This document shows positions 3,268-53,041 of a stretch of DNA of 64,000 nucleotides, one piece after another. Under the pieces are notes generated by a model that saw only the letters and a list, made by a program, of their open reading frames with translations, did not search any database and was not told the DNA's origin. Source of the DNA: Ensifer adhaerens (GTDB lineage Bacteria; Pseudomonadota; Alphaproteobacteria; Rhizobiales; Rhizobiaceae). The DNA is taken from NCBI RefSeq assembly GCF_001270265.1, contig NZ_LGAP01000003.1:1-64000 (forward strand), written 5' to 3'. The first letter of the stretch is position 1. Each line of letters starts with the position of its first letter. Both the position numbers and the translations under genes were made by a program.

Positions 3268-3283
3268 ACTGCCGTCGTTCCCA

Positions 3284-3392
3284 CCGTCCCTACGCCAGCA
3301 TGAACTGGATCAGGTTCAACGGGTCACTGCGCTGCGGTCGAAAGAGCCGATCCGCCCAGCAATATCTCAGCCCCTTGTCGGGACCCCCCTGG
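3284..3392 (-). promoter_or_regulatory. TPP (THI-box) riboswitch
   Basis: On the minus strand the leader contains the two invariant halves of the TPP aptamer: GGGGCTGAGATA (about 3378-3367) and ACCCGTTGAACCTGATCC (about 3333-3316), followed by a GCTGGCGTAGGGA closing strand. The outer stem GGGTCCC/GGGACGG brackets them. It should shut off the thiO-S-G-E operon when thiamine pyrophosphate is plentiful. A TTGACA hexamer on the minus strand at 3433-3428 could be the -35 element, but the -10 is poor. Confidence 0.93.
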
Positions 3393-3626
3393 TGAATGAA
3401 CCGAGTTGAACGACGATAGCCGCACTCTGTCAAGTGTTGGAGCAGAATGATGATTGAAAACGCCGCCGCAAGGGACAACGCTCAGGCCGCGTTCGGCCAC
3501 ATGAGATGCGCTGGTCGCGGAAACGTGCTCAAATCTTGCTCAATGTTCGGACCACAACCGATTACGCGCCAGTCGCATTGTCCACACACAGCCTTGCGCT
3601 CAGAGACGTTAGAGCATGGCGCATAG

Positions 3627-46812: not shown

Positions 46813-49335
46813 ATGAGCGGACCGCTGCAGACGAGATTCAGAGTTGAGGGTATGGACTGTGCTTCATGTGCGAGCAAGATCGACGCCGCTGTCAGGCGCA
46901 TGCCTGGAGTCTCTGATGTCTCGGTATCTGTTACGGCTGGCACGATGACAGTAAGCCATGATGGCAGCAGCGATCTTGATGCAATCGGCCCAAAGCTGTC
47001 CCGGCTCGGCTACAAGGCGAAAGCCATCGAAGCAAGGCCCAGCGTGATCGGCGAGCCGAAACCGGGCCACGCGCACGGACCCGGCTGCTCGCATTCACAC
47101 GACGACCACGATCACACGCATGCGGCCGTCTCCCAACCAAGCAGCAGTCAAACCCGTTTTCGTGTCGGCGGAATGGATTGCGCCTCCTGCGCCAGCAAGA
47201 TCGATACCGCCGTCCGCCGCCTTCCGGATATCGAAGAGGTGAGTGTGTCGGTGACCTCAGGCACGATGACTATCACCCACGCGCCCACGGCAGACCTCGA
47301 TGCTCTGCAGAAGAAGGTATCGGGCCTCGGCTACTCGATCGCGCCGATTGTCAGGACCGCAAGGGTCTCGGCTGCCCCAACCCCGGCAGCCGGTGAACAC
47401 GCGGGCCACGAGCATGAGGCATCTTCCGGAGCGGAAATCGAAGGCCTGCACGGACACGACCATGGGCCAAGCGAAGGCCTTTGGTGGCGAAGCAAAAAAG
47501 GTCGGCTGACGATCCTGGCCGGAGGCTCGCTTGTCGTGGCCTATGGCATCGGCCATCTTTTCCCGGCGATCGAGACCTACGCGTTCATGGTCGCTATGTT
47601 GGTTGGGCTCGTTCCGATCGCCCGACGCGCCATCATGGCCGCATTCGCCGGGACGCCGTTCTCGATCGAAATGCTCATGACCATCGCGGCGGTCGGGGCG
47701 CTGGTCATCAACGCCACCGAGGAGGCCGCCGCGGTTGTCTTCCTGTTCCTCGTCGGCGAACTGCTCGAAGGTGTCGCCGCCGGCAAGGCGCGCGACAGCA
47801 TCAAGTCGCTGACCGCGCTGGTGCCGAAGACAGCACTGTTGGAGGTGGGTGGAAAGACCCGCGAGGTTCCGGCTGAAACACTCGCCGTCGGATCGATCAT
47901 CCTCGTCCGACCCGGAGATAGGATCTCCGCCGACGGCGTGATCGTCGCTGGTGAAAGTTCGGTAGACGAGGCTCCCGTGACGGGCGAGAGCGTTCCGGTC
48001 CGCAAGGGTGTCGATGACCTAGTCTTCGCGGGCACCGTGAACGGCGACGCGGCGCTGCGCGTACGCGTGACGGCCGCGGCCCAGGACAACACGATCGCCC
48101 GCGTCGTGCGCCTCGTCGAGGAAGCGCAAGAATCGAAGGCTCCGATGGAGCGCTTCATCGACCGCTTCTCACGCTACTACACGCCAGGCGTCGTCGTAGT
48201 TGCCGCACTCGTCGCCATCATACCGCCGCTCTTCGCCGGCGGCGTCTGGAGCGAATGGGTGTACAAGGGCCTTGCGGTGCTCCTGATCGGCTGCCCATGC
48301 GCGCTTGTCATCTCGACCCCGGCGGCCATTGCGGCGTCGCTGTCTTCGGGTGCCCGCCGCGGCCTGCTCATGAAGGGTGGAGCGGTCCTCGAGGGACTTG
48401 GAAAGCTGACCGCCATCGCCTTCGACAAGACGGGCACGCTTACGGAGGGCAAGCCCAAGGTGACGGATGTCGTGCCGTTCGGCCGCAACGTGGAAGATGT
48501 GCTGCGCTACGCTGCCGCGCTCGAGACCGGATCCAGCCATCCACTCGCACTCGCCATCCTCGACAAGGCAAACGAGGACGGGATCGATGCTCCGGCCGTC
48601 ACCGAGGCGAAGGCGCTTGGCGGCAAGGGCGTCACAGCGGTCGTGGACGGCGTGGAAGTGTTCTTTGGCTCTCCGAAGGCTGCCGCCGAACGCGTGACGG
48701 TGCCGATGGCGCACTCCAGGAAGATCACATCGCTCAACGACGAGGGAAAGACGGTGTCGGTGCTGATCGTCGGCGACGTCCTCGCAGGGGCCATCGCGAT
48801 GCGCGACGAGCCGCGGCTCGATGCCGTTGCGGGGCTGAAGGCCCTGACCGATGCGGGCATCAAGACGGTGATGCTGACGGGCGACAACAAGCGGACTGCC
48901 ACGGCCATCGGCGCGCAGCTCGGTATCGAGGTCCGTGCCGAGCTCATGCCCGAAGACAAGCAGCGGATCGTCGGCGAACTGAAGAAGGACGGCTACGTCG
49001 TCGGCAAGATCGGCGACGGCATCAACGACGCTCCGGCGCTTGCGGCTGCCGATGTCGGGATCGCGATGGGTGGGGGCACCGACGTTGCCCTCGAGACGGC
49101 TGACGCGGCTGTGCTGCACGGTCGGGTAGGGGATGTCGGCCTTATGGTCGATCTCTCGAAGCGGACGATGCAGAACATTTTCCAGAACATCACGATAGCG
49201 CTTGGGCTGAAGGCCGTGTTCCTAGTGACCACCATCATCGGCATCACTGGGCTATGGCCTGCGATCCTCGCCGACACAGGAGCAACCGTTCTGGTCACGA
49301 TGAACGCGCTGCGGCTGCTGCGCCCGATCAGGTGA
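46813..49335 (+). CDS. zntA: P1B-type heavy-metal ATPase (Zn/Cd/Pb exporter)
   Basis: Inner-membrane pump of 840 residues that exports divalent soft metals. Two N-terminal HMA domains each carry GMDCASC (cysteines C16/C19 and C123/C126). His-rich linkers follow (HAHGPGCSHSHDDHDHTH at about 77-95; GHEHEASS later), which may buffer zinc. The membrane metal site is C494-P-C496, the phosphorylation site D538 in DKTGT, and the hinge GDGINDAPALA. Two HMA domains are more than the single one of E. coli ZntA. Regulated by the MerR-type promoter upstream. Confidence 0.95.
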   Translation: MSGPLQTRFRVEGMDCASCASKIDAAVRRMPGVSDVSVSVTAGTMTVSHDGSSDLDAIGPKLSRLGYKAKAIEARPSVIGEPKPGHAHGPGCSHSHDDHDHTHAAVSQPSSSQTRFRVGGMDCASCASKIDTAVRRLPDIEEVSVSVTSGTMTITHAPTADLDALQKKVSGLGYSIAPIVRTARVSAAPTPAAGEHAGHEHEASSGAEIEGLHGHDHGPSEGLWWRSKKGRLTILAGGSLVVAYGIGHLFPAIETYAFMVAMLVGLVPIARRAIMAAFAGTPFSIEMLMTIAAVGALVINATEEAAAVVFLFLVGELLEGVAAGKARDSIKSLTALVPKTALLEVGGKTREVPAETLAVGSIILVRPGDRISADGVIVAGESSVDEAPVTGESVPVRKGVDDLVFAGTVNGDAALRVRVTAAAQDNTIARVVRLVEEAQESKAPMERFIDRFSRYYTPGVVVVAALVAIIPPLFAGGVWSEWVYKGLAVLLIGCPCALVISTPAAIAASLSSGARRGLLMKGGAVLEGLGKLTAIAFDKTGTLTEGKPKVTDVVPFGRNVEDVLRYAAALETGSSHPLALAILDKANEDGIDAPAVTEAKALGGKGVTAVVDGVEVFFGSPKAAAERVTVPMAHSRKITSLNDEGKTVSVLIVGDVLAGAIAMRDEPRLDAVAGLKALTDAGIKTVMLTGDNKRTATAIGAQLGIEVRAELMPEDKQRIVGELKKDGYVVGKIGDGINDAPALAAADVGIAMGGGTDVALETADAAVLHGRVGDVGLMVDLSKRTMQNIFQNITIALGLKAVFLVTTIIGITGLWPAILADTGATVLVTMNALRLLRPIR

Positions 49336-49400: not shown

Positions 49401-49961
49401 ATGGAGACCTCTGATGGGATTCGACTGGTCCGCGTGTGGAGAATACTGAATGAAGTCCAGGATCGTAGAAACAGGCGGGTCGCGGCTCTCATGCTTGCGC
49501 TCGCGGTTCCCGGCATTTCCGCCGCGCACGATTTCAAGGCCGGAAGCCTGGAGCTGAAGCATCCATGGTCGGCCAAGGCACCTCCGGTGGCTCCGGTACT
49601 TGGCGGATATCTGACCATCGTGAACACAGGCGCGGAGTCTGATCGCCTGCTGGGCGGGAGCACACCGGTGGCCGCGCGCCTGGAGATCCACGAGTCCTCG
49701 ATCGTCGACGGGGTCGCGAGGATGCGGCCTGCGAAGGACGGGATCGAGATAGCCCCGGGCGCGACCGTCAGCCTCCAGCCGGGCGGTGCGCATATCATGC
49801 CCTTCAACCCCAAGGGGCGGCCCGCCGAGGGGGAGAAGTTCAAGGCTACGCTGCAGTTCGAGAAGGCGGGCTCGGTCGAGGTCGAATTCGTGGTCCAGGG
49901 CAAAGGTAAAGTCACTGCGACGCCGCCCGCCGAGGATCACAGTGCCCATGGCAAACCATGA
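49401..49961 (+). CDS. PCuAC-family periplasmic copper chaperone
   Basis: Copper carrier of the DUF461/PCuAC family, about 186 residues, that delivers Cu(I) in the periplasm, classically to cytochrome oxidase. The copper motif is present: H in EIHESS, M in ARMRP about 11 residues later, and HIM in GGAHIMPF. The signal peptide is RNRRVAALMLALAVPGISA-AHD. The exact start is uncertain (ATG 49401 gives a long N-region; GTG 49434 is an alternative). A His-containing tail (EDHSAHGKP) may bind metal. Confidence 0.85.
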   Translation: METSDGIRLVRVWRILNEVQDRRNRRVAALMLALAVPGISAAHDFKAGSLELKHPWSAKAPPVAPVLGGYLTIVNTGAESDRLLGGSTPVAARLEIHESSIVDGVARMRPAKDGIEIAPGATVSLQPGGAHIMPFNPKGRPAEGEKFKATLQFEKAGSVEVEFVVQGKGKVTATPPAEDHSAHGKP

Positions 49962-50031: not shown

Positions 50032-51237
50032 TCAGATCTTGACGAGCATGGCGGTCGCGTACATGAACGCTAGCCCGGCCGCGATACCGCTCAAAGCTGC
50101 AGGTGTCAGAACCTGAGTGTAGCTGGCCCGGTCGCTGTCGCTCCTGGCAAGCAGGCCCGTGACTTCCAGTATGACCTGCGCGATAGCACCAGCGCCGATC
50201 GCCAGAGCAATTGCGGTCCACTGCGGCGCGACGGCGAGGCTTCCGAGCCAGATCCCGAAGACCGCGGGGCCGCCGGCGAGCAATGTCAGGCCGAGAAAAT
50301 GAACGAGCTTCGGGCGGACTTTCAGGAGGGGGGCGGCGATGCCGATCCCTTCGGTGATGTTGTGAAGCGTGAAGCCGAGCACCAGGAACGTCCCGAGCCC
50401 CGCCGCGCCCGCCGCAAACGCAGCACCGATGGCCAGACCTTCGCCGAAATTGTGCAGTCCGATGCCGAGGGCGATATAGGCCGCAAGCGCAAGACCGGTC
50501 GGTGAACCCTGGCGGCGGCCGATCGCGACGAGCATGAGGAAGCTGGCCACCGCTGTCAGGATCACCATCACGCTGCCCTGGAAAATCGCCGCCGACGCGG
50601 TCGCGAATTCCAATGCTTCTTGGATAGTGTCGACAAACAGGAAGGCAAGGAGACCGACGGTCATCGCCAGCAGGAACGTCATGGTGTTGCGGCCCGCGCC
50701 GCGCAGCGCCGGATAGCACAACAGTCCGATTGCCACTGGCAGGATTCCGACGAAGGCTCCGAGCAGTGCTTGGGAAACAAGTGCGTTTCCGCTGACCTTC
50801 GGCGTAGGGACGGCCACCGGAATTTCGTGATCGAAGGTCGCACCAGTGTTGGTGACGAATGTGACCTTGTGCGCCTCACCGAGAACCCACGGGAAGGGGA
50901 TCGCCACCCAGGCAGTGTCGCCGCGCGGTATCGTTCCGGCGGGTTCCTGAGTGAACTGCCAGTAGGCGGCGTCGACCTGCACCTGCGCGATCGTCATCGG
51001 TTCCGATCCGCCGCCGCGCACCTTGAGCCGCAGACCGTTTTCATCGAGCACGGTTCGTTCGATCGTCAGGTTCTCGACAGGCGGGGCACCGTTGTTGAAA
51101 CCTCGCAGGGGGTCGCTCTGCAGCAGCCACAGCACTGCGGCGATCAGCACGATCAGCGGTAAGACGAGCCACAGAAGATGCCGTGGGGTCGGCGCGACGG
51201 TGGAGACCGGGCGGAAGTTGCGCGGGTTCTCGTTCAT
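50032..51237 (-). CDS. ZIP-family metal permease with N-terminal periplasmic domain
   Basis: Membrane protein of 401 residues. The C-terminal 240 residues are ZIP, with the metal-site helices LHNFGEGLAIG (about 260) and LHNITEGIGIA (about 290). Unlike standard ZIP proteins it begins with one helix (LLWLVLPLIVLIAAVLWLL, about 22-40), followed by about 110 residues of beta-rich periplasmic sequence before the first ZIP helix. The ATG overlaps the multicopper oxidase stop (ATGA), so the two are co-translated. Probable metal importer; the MntR-like boxes upstream of the operon suggest manganese or iron. Confidence 0.88.
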   Translation of the reverse strand: MNENPRNFRPVSTVAPTPRHLLWLVLPLIVLIAAVLWLLQSDPLRGFNNGAPPVENLTIERTVLDENGLRLKVRGGGSEPMTIAQVQVDAAYWQFTQEPAGTIPRGDTAWVAIPFPWVLGEAHKVTFVTNTGATFDHEIPVAVPTPKVSGNALVSQALLGAFVGILPVAIGLLCYPALRGAGRNTMTFLLAMTVGLLAFLFVDTIQEALEFATASAAIFQGSVMVILTAVASFLMLVAIGRRQGSPTGLALAAYIALGIGLHNFGEGLAIGAAFAAGAAGLGTFLVLGFTLHNITEGIGIAAPLLKVRPKLVHFLGLTLLAGGPAVFGIWLGSLAVAPQWTAIALAIGAGAIAQVILEVTGLLARSDSDRASYTQVLTPAALSGIAAGLAFMYATAMLVKI

Positions 51238-52361
51238 GACAGCGTCTCCACGACATCGAACATGCCCATCCAGCCGAGTTCGGCGAATTCGGACTGGTGG
51301 GCGTGGAACATGTAAAGCCCGACTTCGTGCTCCCTGTAGGTGAACTCCAGGATGCCGCGTTGTGCCTGGCATTGCATGATAAGATCGACCGTCCGCAGCG
51401 TCGGGGTCAGCGTCGTTCCCTGGTCGAAGTAGTCAAAAAAGTTCCCATGGAGGTGGAACGAGTTGATTGGGTCGAACTCGGTGATGTTGACCAGATAGAT
51501 CCGTACCGGCCTCCCTTTTTCGACCTTGATCGGTTCCTTCGTATAGCAATGGGCGATGGTGTTGCAGGCATAGAACTCGTTCTCACCATCGAAAGTGGTG
51601 TCGAAGGCGTTCATGACCATCGCCATCTCCTGCCACTCGACATTTTCCGGCGAACCGAGGAGGCGGGATTTTGCCATTTCGGCATTCTCTGGGTGACGCG
51701 CCGGGTCCGGGTCGATGACGAAGATACCGTACATACCCTTGTGAATGTGCCTCGCCAGAGGAAGGGCATGGCAGTGATAGAGATGGCAGCCGAAAGGTCT
51801 GGCATCGAATTCATAGACGAATTCGTCTCCGGGCGCGATCACGCCCGCGCCGGGCACTCCATCCATGCGAGCCGAGTGGATGCCATGGAAGTGCATTGAG
51901 TGGGGATGGGATCCGTTGTTCCTGAAGACGATCTTGAGCCGCTCCCCCTCGGTGGCGCGGAGCGCCGGACCCGGCACGCGGCCATTGTAGGTCCAGGCGG
52001 GAAACATCACGCCGGGCGCGATCTCGATCTCCTTATCCTCGGCGGTGATTTCGAAGGTCCGGAGCTTTCTTCCGTCCGGCAGATCGGTGACCGTGCCGGT
52101 GTACCAGTCCGTCAGCATTTTCGTCGGATGGAAGCCATTGCGTTCATTGTCCACCGTCCCGACGGTGATCATCGCCCCGTGCCCGGACTGATGGGAGGGC
52201 ACGGCGGCGGAACTCTGCGCCCCGGCTGCCGTTGCATGGTTGCCGTGGTTTTCCTGAGCCACCGTGTTGGTGGAGCAGATCGCTGTCGCGCCGATCGTCG
52301 CGGCACCGCCGCCCAACAGCAGGCTCCGTCTGCTCAATGCCGCCTGCGCCCATCTCAACAT
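51234..52361 (-). CDS. Two-domain multicopper oxidase, Tat-exported
   Basis: Periplasmic copper oxidase of 375 residues with a Tat signal (SRRSLLLGGGAATIGATA, about 10-27). Cupredoxin domain 1 holds HSMHFHGIH and the type 1 site HCHALPLARHIHKGM (Cys, His, Met; spacing like nitrite reductases). Domain 2 has FHLHGNFFDYF and FHAHQSEFAELGWMGMF without a type 1 cysteine. The size and layout fit a two-domain laccase/NirK-like enzyme. A Met/His-containing stretch precedes domain 1. It forms an operon with the ZIP permease downstream and is divergent from mntR, so it may oxidise the metal that is transported. Confidence 0.9.
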   Translation of the reverse strand: MLRWAQAALSRRSLLLGGGAATIGATAICSTNTVAQENHGNHATAAGAQSSAAVPSHQSGHGAMITVGTVDNERNGFHPTKMLTDWYTGTVTDLPDGRKLRTFEITAEDKEIEIAPGVMFPAWTYNGRVPGPALRATEGERLKIVFRNNGSHPHSMHFHGIHSARMDGVPGAGVIAPGDEFVYEFDARPFGCHLYHCHALPLARHIHKGMYGIFVIDPDPARHPENAEMAKSRLLGSPENVEWQEMAMVMNAFDTTFDGENEFYACNTIAHCYTKEPIKVEKGRPVRIYLVNITEFDPINSFHLHGNFFDYFDQGTTLTPTLRTVDLIMQCQAQRGILEFTYREHEVGLYMFHAHQSEFAELGWMGMFDVVETLS

Positions 52362-52414
52362 GTTGGCTCCGCCCTCAATTAGCAATTTACAAGAAATAGA
52401 GCATAGGAGGTTGA

Positions 52415-52432
52415 TTATAGCAAGTGCTATAA
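52415..52432. promoter_or_regulatory. mntR box: MntR-type operator 1
   Basis: TTATAGCAAGTGCTATAA is a perfect 8-bp inverted repeat with a 2-bp centre. It lies 54 nt upstream of the multicopper oxidase start, where a repressor would block that promoter. The size and AT-rich ends fit DtxR/MntR-family operators. Confidence 0.7.
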
Positions 52433-52498
52433 TTTGATGGAGATGCTTAGTGCCGCTGCCGCTCTCGCACGCAATGAATATTCGGTGCTGGATTGAAA

Positions 52499-52514
52499 AA
52501 TAGCCTTGGCTATA
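52499..52514. promoter_or_regulatory. mntR box: MntR-type operator 2
   Basis: AATAGCCTTGGCTATA shares the half-site pattern (ATAGC...GCTAT) with operator 1 and forms a perfect 6-bp dyad ATAGCC/GGCTAT. It lies 42 nt upstream of the mntR start, so autoregulation is likely. Confidence 0.6.
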
Positions 52515-52555
52515 CTATCTCATGGTCATAGCACTTCCATACAAGGAACATTGGA

Positions 52556-53041
52556 TTGTCGAAGCATGAGAAAATCGGGCCCGAGGTGGAATCGAGCCTG
52601 ATCAATGCAGACGCGCAGGTCGAGAGCTTCCGCCAGACGCGGAACAATCGCCGGACCGAACTCGTCGAAGACTATGTCGAACTCATCGCCGACCTGATCG
52701 AGGATGGTGGGGAAGCCCGCCAGGTTGATATCGCCCAGCGTCTGGGGGTGGCCCAGCCGACCGTCGCCAAGATGCTGAAGAGGCTTATTTCCGAGGGCTA
52801 CATCCAGCAGCGCCGCTACCGCGGCATCTTTCTCACGGAGGCCGGCCAGAAGCTCGCGGAACTCTGCCGCGAACGGCACCATATCGTCGAATCCTTCCTG
52901 TGCTCGATTGGCGTCTCGCCGGAAACGGCACGCATTGACGCGGAAGGAATGGAGCATCATGCCAGCGCGGAGACGCTCGAGGCGTTCAAGGCCTTTCTAG
53001 CCCGCGCCACGCCACCGCGCCGCGTCGCAGGTCAGGCGTGA
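52556..53041 (+). CDS. mntR: MntR-like DtxR-family metalloregulator
   Basis: Repressor of 161 residues that would sense Mn(II) (or Fe(II)). N-terminal winged helix at about 35-98: DYVELIADLIEDGGEARQVD, VAQPTVAKMLKRLISEGYI. The dimerisation domain follows, with metal-ligand candidates in CRERHHIVESFLCSIGVSP and AEGMEHHAS (E and H residues). The start is TTG (52556) after an AAGGAA site. Divergent from the oxidase-ZIP operon across a 194-bp region with two palindromes. The unrelated manganese importer mntH is not present. Confidence 0.9.
   Translation: MSKHEKIGPEVESSLINADAQVESFRQTRNNRRTELVEDYVELIADLIEDGGEARQVDIAQRLGVAQPTVAKMLKRLISEGYIQQRRYRGIFLTEAGQKLAELCRERHHIVESFLCSIGVSPETARIDAEGMEHHASAETLEAFKAFLARATPPRRVAGQA

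Follow-up and report, generated by a model that had tools for sequence, protein, structure and literature searches.

Import of metals linked to their oxidation is known in bacteria from EfeUOB and FtrABCD, which contain cupredoxin or electron-carrier parts and use a permease of the Ftr1 type. The best-known precedent for joining an oxidase to a permease is Fet3-Ftr1 of fungal iron uptake (PMC2631029), and in the ammonia-oxidising archaeon Nitrososphaera viennensis it has been proposed that Cu(I) is oxidised by the multicopper oxidase MCO1 and then taken up by the adjacent permease (PMC7785015); statements on the papers cited here by PMC number refer to excerpts of their texts. A comparable gene pair lies in a 64,000-nucleotide stretch of Ensifer adhaerens DNA (contig NZ_LGAP01000003.1, positions 1 to 64,000; the window in what follows), where the gene for a two-domain multicopper oxidase (MCO) directly precedes that for a ZIP-like permease and is divergent from mntR. 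We consider it rather probable (about 0.6) that this MCO–ZIP pair is a two-gene manganese import module made under manganese starvation.

The MCO gene (51234-52361, minus strand; 375 aa counted from the ATG) carries a Tat signal, and its stop overlaps the start of the ZIP gene (50032-51237, minus strand; 401 aa, assigned by Pfam, a structural model, and fold comparison) in a 4-nt ATGA at 51234-51237, as seen from the reading frames. On the other side, mntR (52556-53041, plus strand; TTG start, 161 aa) codes for a manganese-binding repressor of the E. coli type. Its product scores 239.2 bits against the NCBIfam MntR equivalog NF008273, above the cut-off of 153; its top hit in the PDB is the MntR chain 2h09, taken to be that of E. 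coli, and the alignment shows conservation of D39, E42, H108, E130, E133, and H134 (Bacillus MntR positions), presumably the metal ligands of the Bacillus protein. The MCO gene and mntR are separated by two exact ATAGCNNNNGCTAT palindromes, detected by a pattern scan: ATAGCAAGTGCTAT at 52417-52430, about 55 nt ahead of the MCO start, and ATAGCCTTGGCTAT at 52500-52513, about 42 nt ahead of the mntR start. Only 0.02 such sites are expected in the window, and none of 100 shuffles reached two. We assume that ATAGCNNNNGCTAT forms the core of the MntR box of E. coli; binding of MntR to the two palindromes and a response to Mn(II) are putative. A consensus scan found no promoter-like site between the divergent MCO gene and mntR. 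The pair is present once in the window's genome according to a profile search, and the reading frames adjoining MntR-box cores in four other places of this genome show no evident link to manganese; a reversed control pattern is commoner in this genome than the MntR-box core (16 versus 6 sites). The sequence-only reading that drew attention to the locus had described the Tat-exported oxidase gene overlapping the ZIP gene, the divergent MntR/DtxR-type repressor, and the matching palindromes between them, all of which hold.

The arrangement is found far beyond Ensifer. In each of the 95 loci compared (15 on plasmids and 80 in genomes), MCO lies directly upstream of ZIP; the overlap is of the 4-nt ATGA type in 75 of them, and in the rest the genes are within about 30 nt, except for L070 with its fragmented MCO frame. 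According to their records, the hosts belong to Alpha- and Gammaproteobacteria, Cyanobacteria, Chloroflexi, Fraserbacteria, Deinococcus, Actinobacteria, Bacilli, and haloarchaea, while a contig labelled Verrucomicrobiaceae (L082) may be a misplaced alphaproteobacterial one, given its similarity to the alphaproteobacterial contig L085. A search with ZIP returned 146 plasmid records, and all 17 examined bear MCO directly upstream. A ZIP scan of one genome per species over 84,980 species gave at least 576 relatives, of which the best 80 were kept; in 80 of 80, MCO, or the part of it left by the contig or frame, directly precedes ZIP. Since these 80 are the closest relatives, evenly drawn samples weigh more.

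In such samples, the best 6 to 10 first-look candidates per genome were scored by profile searches. Among 289 genomes of Alphaproteobacteria, ZIP was detected at 1e-6 in 10 and strongly (4e-88 or better) in seven; MCO accompanies each of the seven strong ZIPs and none of the three weak ones, and MCO at 1e-40 is found in the same seven genomes and nowhere else. Conserved adjacency, whose absence the sequence-only reading had named as refuting its interpretation, is borne out by both kinds of comparison. Both genes are present in the same two of 299 genomes from the window's phylum, a sample that also includes a C-terminal ZIP remnant beside an mntR fragment, with no MCO found (G444), and a weak ordinary ZIP without MCO (G542). 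Of 185 genomes in the class of the Halomonas genome G593, the pair is present in G593 alone. In 283 genomes of the cyanobacterial phylum of G784, ZIP occurs in four and MCO is adjacent in all four, two of these pairs being broken: in G938 (C1:3518890-3522142), MCO is split into two parts that lie about 1.2 kb from each other and ZIP changes frame, and in G916 (C185:4810-5888), a deletion fuses the first half of MCO to the second half of ZIP. The G444 remnant (L119:4956-5620) likewise looks like a deletion that left parts of mntR and ZIP. The module may be gained and lost often.

The same 283 genomes contain an MCO match at 1e-40 in 47 cases, 43 of which reach only 1e-65 to 1e-103 and come without this ZIP. 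The MCOs of these 43 genomes are a sister group, common in this sample (about 45 of the 283 genomes by score): a tree with 39 MCOs from pairs and 15 from the sister group separates the two sets at a single branch, with support of 100/100. A lipoprotein-like gene follows the sister MCO in 19 of 28 cyanobacterial loci (L172, L175-L201); its only family hit is a weak one to helix-hairpin-helix. The four ordinary ZIPs encountered (L009-L011 and L116; frames of 268-290 aa) lack the extra domain described below, and MCO is absent within the 3.3-3.7 kb around them. Over 94 aligned pairs (the window and 93 of the 95 loci, L054 and L070 being omitted because of a short MCO), ZIP distances correlate with MCO distances at 0.939, while the highest of 500 permutations gave 0.205. 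The two-way linkage rules out a chance neighbourhood. On these sequence comparisons, MCO and ZIP form a close to obligate pair whose members diverged in step, which argues that both proteins act on one process. A natural fusion of the two was sought in the 95 loci, and the sole long frame (L024) proved to be a ZIP frame open upstream and annotated as two genes.

As to what this process might be, the regulators point to manganese. Within 500 bp of the pair, 42 of the 95 loci have a gene of the DtxR/MntR family (in L110, with a second one 3.3 kb away) and seven a Fur-family gene, both counts resting on profiles built from the neighbours of the pair themselves. Five DtxR regulators from outside proteobacteria score best against the model of manganese-dependent MntR, all below its cut-off, and for the single Fur-family protein scanned the top matches are ferric-uptake Fur models, again below cut-off. 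In Rhizobium, the Fur-like repressor Mur responds to manganese and controls sitABCD and mntH (PMC5575495). Upstream regions sufficient for motif counting were available for 92 of the 95 loci. As both motifs were picked from palindromes in these very regions, a weakness of the manganese argument, the following counts are after the fact: among the 41 DtxR-linked loci, 25 have the MntR core TAGCNNNNGCTA before the pair and none the Mur-like motif, among the 51 others 6 have the former and 19 the latter, and at least one type of box is present in 49 of 92, the background being 7 (MntR core) and 4 (Mur-like motif) of 2544 windows of 330 nt. A palindrome of the TGCAAAT..ATTTGCA type was seen upstream of MCO where mntR is not adjacent (L041, L042, L047, L048, L051, L053, L063, L068, L079, L084, and others), and it resembles one before some Nramp genes.

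The Nramp genes of pair-bearing genomes allow a comparison separate from the definition of the motifs. In 530-nt windows upstream of 24 Nramp genes, the Mur-like motif was found before seven and the MntR core before three, i.e., 10 of 24 together; these 24 are the strong loci among 30 returned from 38 pair-bearing genomes selected from 81, and the family cut-off is passed by two of the six omitted as well. A plasmid of Deinococcus has the pair in divergent orientation to genes for a DtxR-type regulator and an Nramp protein. It is because of the DtxR/MntR neighbours and the MntR- and Mur-type sites, shared with Nramp genes, that we favour manganese as the substrate, and, as far as sequence comparison goes, these regulators and operator-like sites support a role in metal import that is controlled by manganese. 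The pair does not generally exclude mntH, since 20 of the 38 pair-bearing genomes have an Nramp match over the cut-off, and the idea that it replaces this importer was dropped. In the window's genome, a family search gave no Nramp match and two binding proteins of the ZnuA family, one of which is taken as SitA and the other, rich in His, as ZnuA. Before its sitA, the exact form of the Mur-like pattern is missing, and imperfect forms can be discerned by eye.

The copper sites of the oxidase appear complete. The window MCO matches Pfam families Cu-oxidase_3 and Cu-oxidase_2, and it has two cupredoxin domains with the ligand positions of a T1 and a trinuclear site, as expected of a two-domain MCO; its predicted model has a mean pLDDT of 78.5. 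The twin-arginine pair does not vary across 36 aligned rows. Eleven His/Cys positions checked, which we take to be copper ligands, are invariant in 94 of 94 aligned pairs, as is W365. The T1 site is presumably formed in domain 1 by H155, C198, and H206, with M211 as the axial residue; of the 94 pairs, 61 have Met and 33 have Leu as this axial residue, so that the T1 potential may vary. In G105, an MCO copy (C7:41416-42537; L156, L003) has a TAA inside the profile match and an open frame without a Tat signal; it may be inactive, or its start may be wrongly called.

The permease is a ZIP-like protein. The window member scores 22.3 bits against PF02535, below the gathering score of 35.1; all 42 members scanned match this family at E 0.01 or better, and ZIP is both the sole Pfam family of the window permease and the sole one common to the 42. 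In the predicted model (mean pLDDT 86.5), a helix at residues 18-41 (51115-51186, minus strand) and an eight-stranded beta domain at residues 55-139 (50821-51075, minus strand) precede eight long helices at residues 150-400 (50038-50790, minus strand). The core of the model matches BbZIP (PDB 5tsa) by fold with E 3.4e-6, and the eight helices with paired motifs of the HNxxE type, H262-N263-E266 and H292-N293-E296, all six residues invariant in the 94 pairs, are those expected of a ZIP. The position that aligns by eye with BbZIP E240 (a numbering we assume) is Ala in 92 of 94 and otherwise Val. For the beta domain, no Pfam family was found in the 42 members scanned, and its fold matches are Ig-like (FlaF/FlaG, DsbD-N, and CopC; E 0.005 and above) and too weak for assigning a function to the N-terminal region. 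The helix and beta domain proposed by the sequence-only reading are thus reproduced by the model, while their placement is less direct: the helix would span the membrane, and the beta domain would lie outside it, on the periplasmic side.

A few operons bear a third gene after ZIP. By small profiles, it codes for a Rieske protein in 3 of 95 loci (Chroococcidiopsis and two Rhodococcus), for a plastocyanin in two (both haloarchaea), and for a TatA-type protein in two (both Bacilli). Two of the Rieske genes (L021:5080-5514 and L025:5053-5472) share 1 and 4 nt with the end of the ZIP gene, and the tatA-type genes follow the pair on two Bacilli plasmids (L026:5081-5299 and L027:5114-5290), as if the oxidase carried its own export part. 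When translated, the same two Rieske genes and one plastocyanin gene show by eye a signal-like start ending in a lipobox-like Cys, whereby these proteins would sit outside the membrane together with the oxidase. Exported electron carriers in such positions, small in number, fit a redox step in the function of the module.

In the window, the pair is neighboured by genes for the copper chaperone PCu(A)C (49401-49961, plus strand; family match), which may supply the pair with copper, and a heavy-metal P-type ATPase (46813-49335, plus strand; best match to the Zn/Cd/Hg/Pb type, below cut-off). Plasmid pSinB of Sinorhizobium sp. M14, which carries metal-resistance modules with iron among the metals named (PMC6115938), has the block of P-type ATPase, PCu(A)C, ZIP, MCO, and mntR in the order of the window, with PCu(A)C again adjoining the pair and identities to the window of 94% for ZIP and 90% for MCO. 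Neighbour clusters at other loci comprise P-type ATPases and, from one member scanned of each of six further clusters, SCO, DsbA/DsbB, DUF411, signal peptidase II, and L,D-transpeptidase. Far from the pair, a TPP riboswitch is predicted at 3269-3400 of the window on the minus strand (68.9 bits).

If the pair is a manganese importer, it might work as follows. At low Mn(II), MntR, or Mur in other hosts, would leave the operator, as family knowledge suggests, and the oxidase and permease would be made together once the operator is free. The oxidase would be exported in a folded state via Tat, bind four coppers, and act at the outer mouth of the permease, tethered there by the N-terminal helix and beta domain. 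The least certain step is that the oxidase would act on the incoming metal, by analogy with Fet3 and Ftr1. Its substrate would be Mn(II) or Fe(II), whose electrons it would pass to O2 or, alternatively, exchange with a lipid-anchored Rieske protein or plastocyanin where present, and this oxidation would confer selectivity on the permease. Of the oxidase-assisted import put forward by the sequence-only reading, the import role under manganese control has gained support; that oxidation is coupled to transport, and that the oxidase docks on the N-terminal domain of ZIP, we infer.

Several observations weigh against a manganese importer of this kind. Neither a DtxR- nor a Fur-family gene is present within 500 bp in 46 of the 95 loci, and 43 of the 92 upstream regions have neither motif. 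Electron-carrier third genes are rare (three Rieske and two plastocyanin in 95 loci), and the pairs often stand amid copper, thiol, and heavy-metal genes, which is compatible with copper as well. Because of the SitA-type binding protein, the pair is probably not the only manganese route in the window's genome. ZIP proteins carry divalent ions, and a hand-over of Mn(III) or Fe(III) would be unusual. Finally, in N. viennensis, the permease beside MCO1 rises under copper limitation (PMC7785015).

A tentative and not very probable extension of the manganese importer is a redox gate, in which the oxidase would act as a filter that admits to the permease only metals capable of being oxidised (Mn, perhaps Fe) and bars Zn, Cd, Co, and Ni. 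If true, it would account for the presence of a module for manganese starvation on plasmids of heavy-metal resistance, a setting in which ordinary importers such as MntH would also admit toxic divalent ions, as well as for the exported electron carrier that a few operons have of their own.

A rather unlikely alternative, which keeps manganese as the substrate, is that the oxidase leaves the imported metal alone and clears Fe(II) or Cu(I) at the mouth of the permease, while ZIP imports Mn(II). The ordinary His/Asn/Glu set of ZIP metal positions, unchanged in all 94 pairs, suits this view, as do the frequent copper genes nearby and the Met or Leu (61 and 33 of 94) at the T1 axial position, with a potential that may vary. 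Clearing alone, however, leaves unexplained why an intact ZIP of this kind was never encountered without MCO and why neither the extra domain nor MCO goes with the four ordinary ZIPs. The N. viennensis proposal, transferred to this pair, would make it a copper importer, with MCO oxidising Cu(I) and ZIP importing Cu(II). Induction of MCO1 and the adjacent permease by copper limitation (PMC7785015) and the nearby PCu(A)C and SCO proteins speak for it, yet we regard it as improbable: the regulators and operator-like sites are of the manganese type and shared with Nramp genes, MCO1 patterns in N. maritimus conflict in the excerpts of the same report (PMC7785015), and the archaeal precedent is likened to the pair by gene description. 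Iron uptake by a ferroxidase and a permease in the manner of Fet3-Ftr1, with ZIP as the permease, has that well-known precedent (PMC2631029), the ability of DtxR and Fur families to sense iron, and the match of the sole Fur-family protein scanned to ferric-uptake models, below cut-offs, in its favour. It is made decidedly improbable by the window regulator, which belongs to the manganese type (NF008273), and by the preference of the five other DtxR regulators for the manganese-dependent MntR model, albeit below cut-off. That the two proteins are heavy-metal-tolerance cargo acting separately, as their presence on several plasmids with efflux ATPases nearby and the description of pSinB as a metal-resistance plasmid (PMC6115938) might suggest, is hardly credible in view of the two-way linkage, the divergence in step, and a repressor of the metal-starvation kind.

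How manganese is imported selectively amid other divalent metals is a long-standing question of metal biology. Spread from bacteria to archaea and furnished with manganese-type regulators that differ by host, the conserved pair offers a case of oxidase-assisted import outside fungi that can be tested directly, as well as a possible role for two-domain oxidases of unknown function.

Among the literature matches listed, which cover open-licence papers only, so that absence proves little, a manganese-regulated MCO–ZIP module was not described in any title or opening of an abstract. In Haloferax mediterranei, a ZIP and an MCO are listed among copper genes without being linked to each other in the excerpts seen (PMC9240420). 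An MCO beside a ZIP is already known: in N. viennensis, MCO1 and a zinc/iron permease (NVIE_000600 and NVIE_000590), known from genome and transcript data with copper uptake proposed, resemble the present pair in that a two-domain MCO adjoins a ZIP-type permease (PMC7785015), and the "new design" claimed by the sequence-only reading is therefore too strong a term.

Among solved structures, the closest to the MCO model is PDB 7rab, by its entry title the dodecameric MCO of M. hydrothermalis, with 71% identity in the fold alignment. BbZIP shares the core fold with the permease of the pair, the match spanning the ZIP core alone, and differs by eye at some metal-binding positions; to our knowledge, BbZIP has no oxidase partner. 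With the MntH and SitABCD importers, the pair has in common the upstream motifs, found also before some Nramp genes of pair-bearing genomes, whereas these importers have no oxidase and belong to other protein families. Like Fet3-Ftr1, the pair combines a copper oxidase, here with an unvarying set of copper-site positions, and a permease, acting outside the cytoplasm. It differs in having a ZIP rather than an Ftr1-type permease, an oxidase with two cupredoxin domains and a Tat signal, and regulators of the manganese type. The MCO–ZIP pair may, by analogy, work like Fet3-Ftr1 while not being a member of that system.

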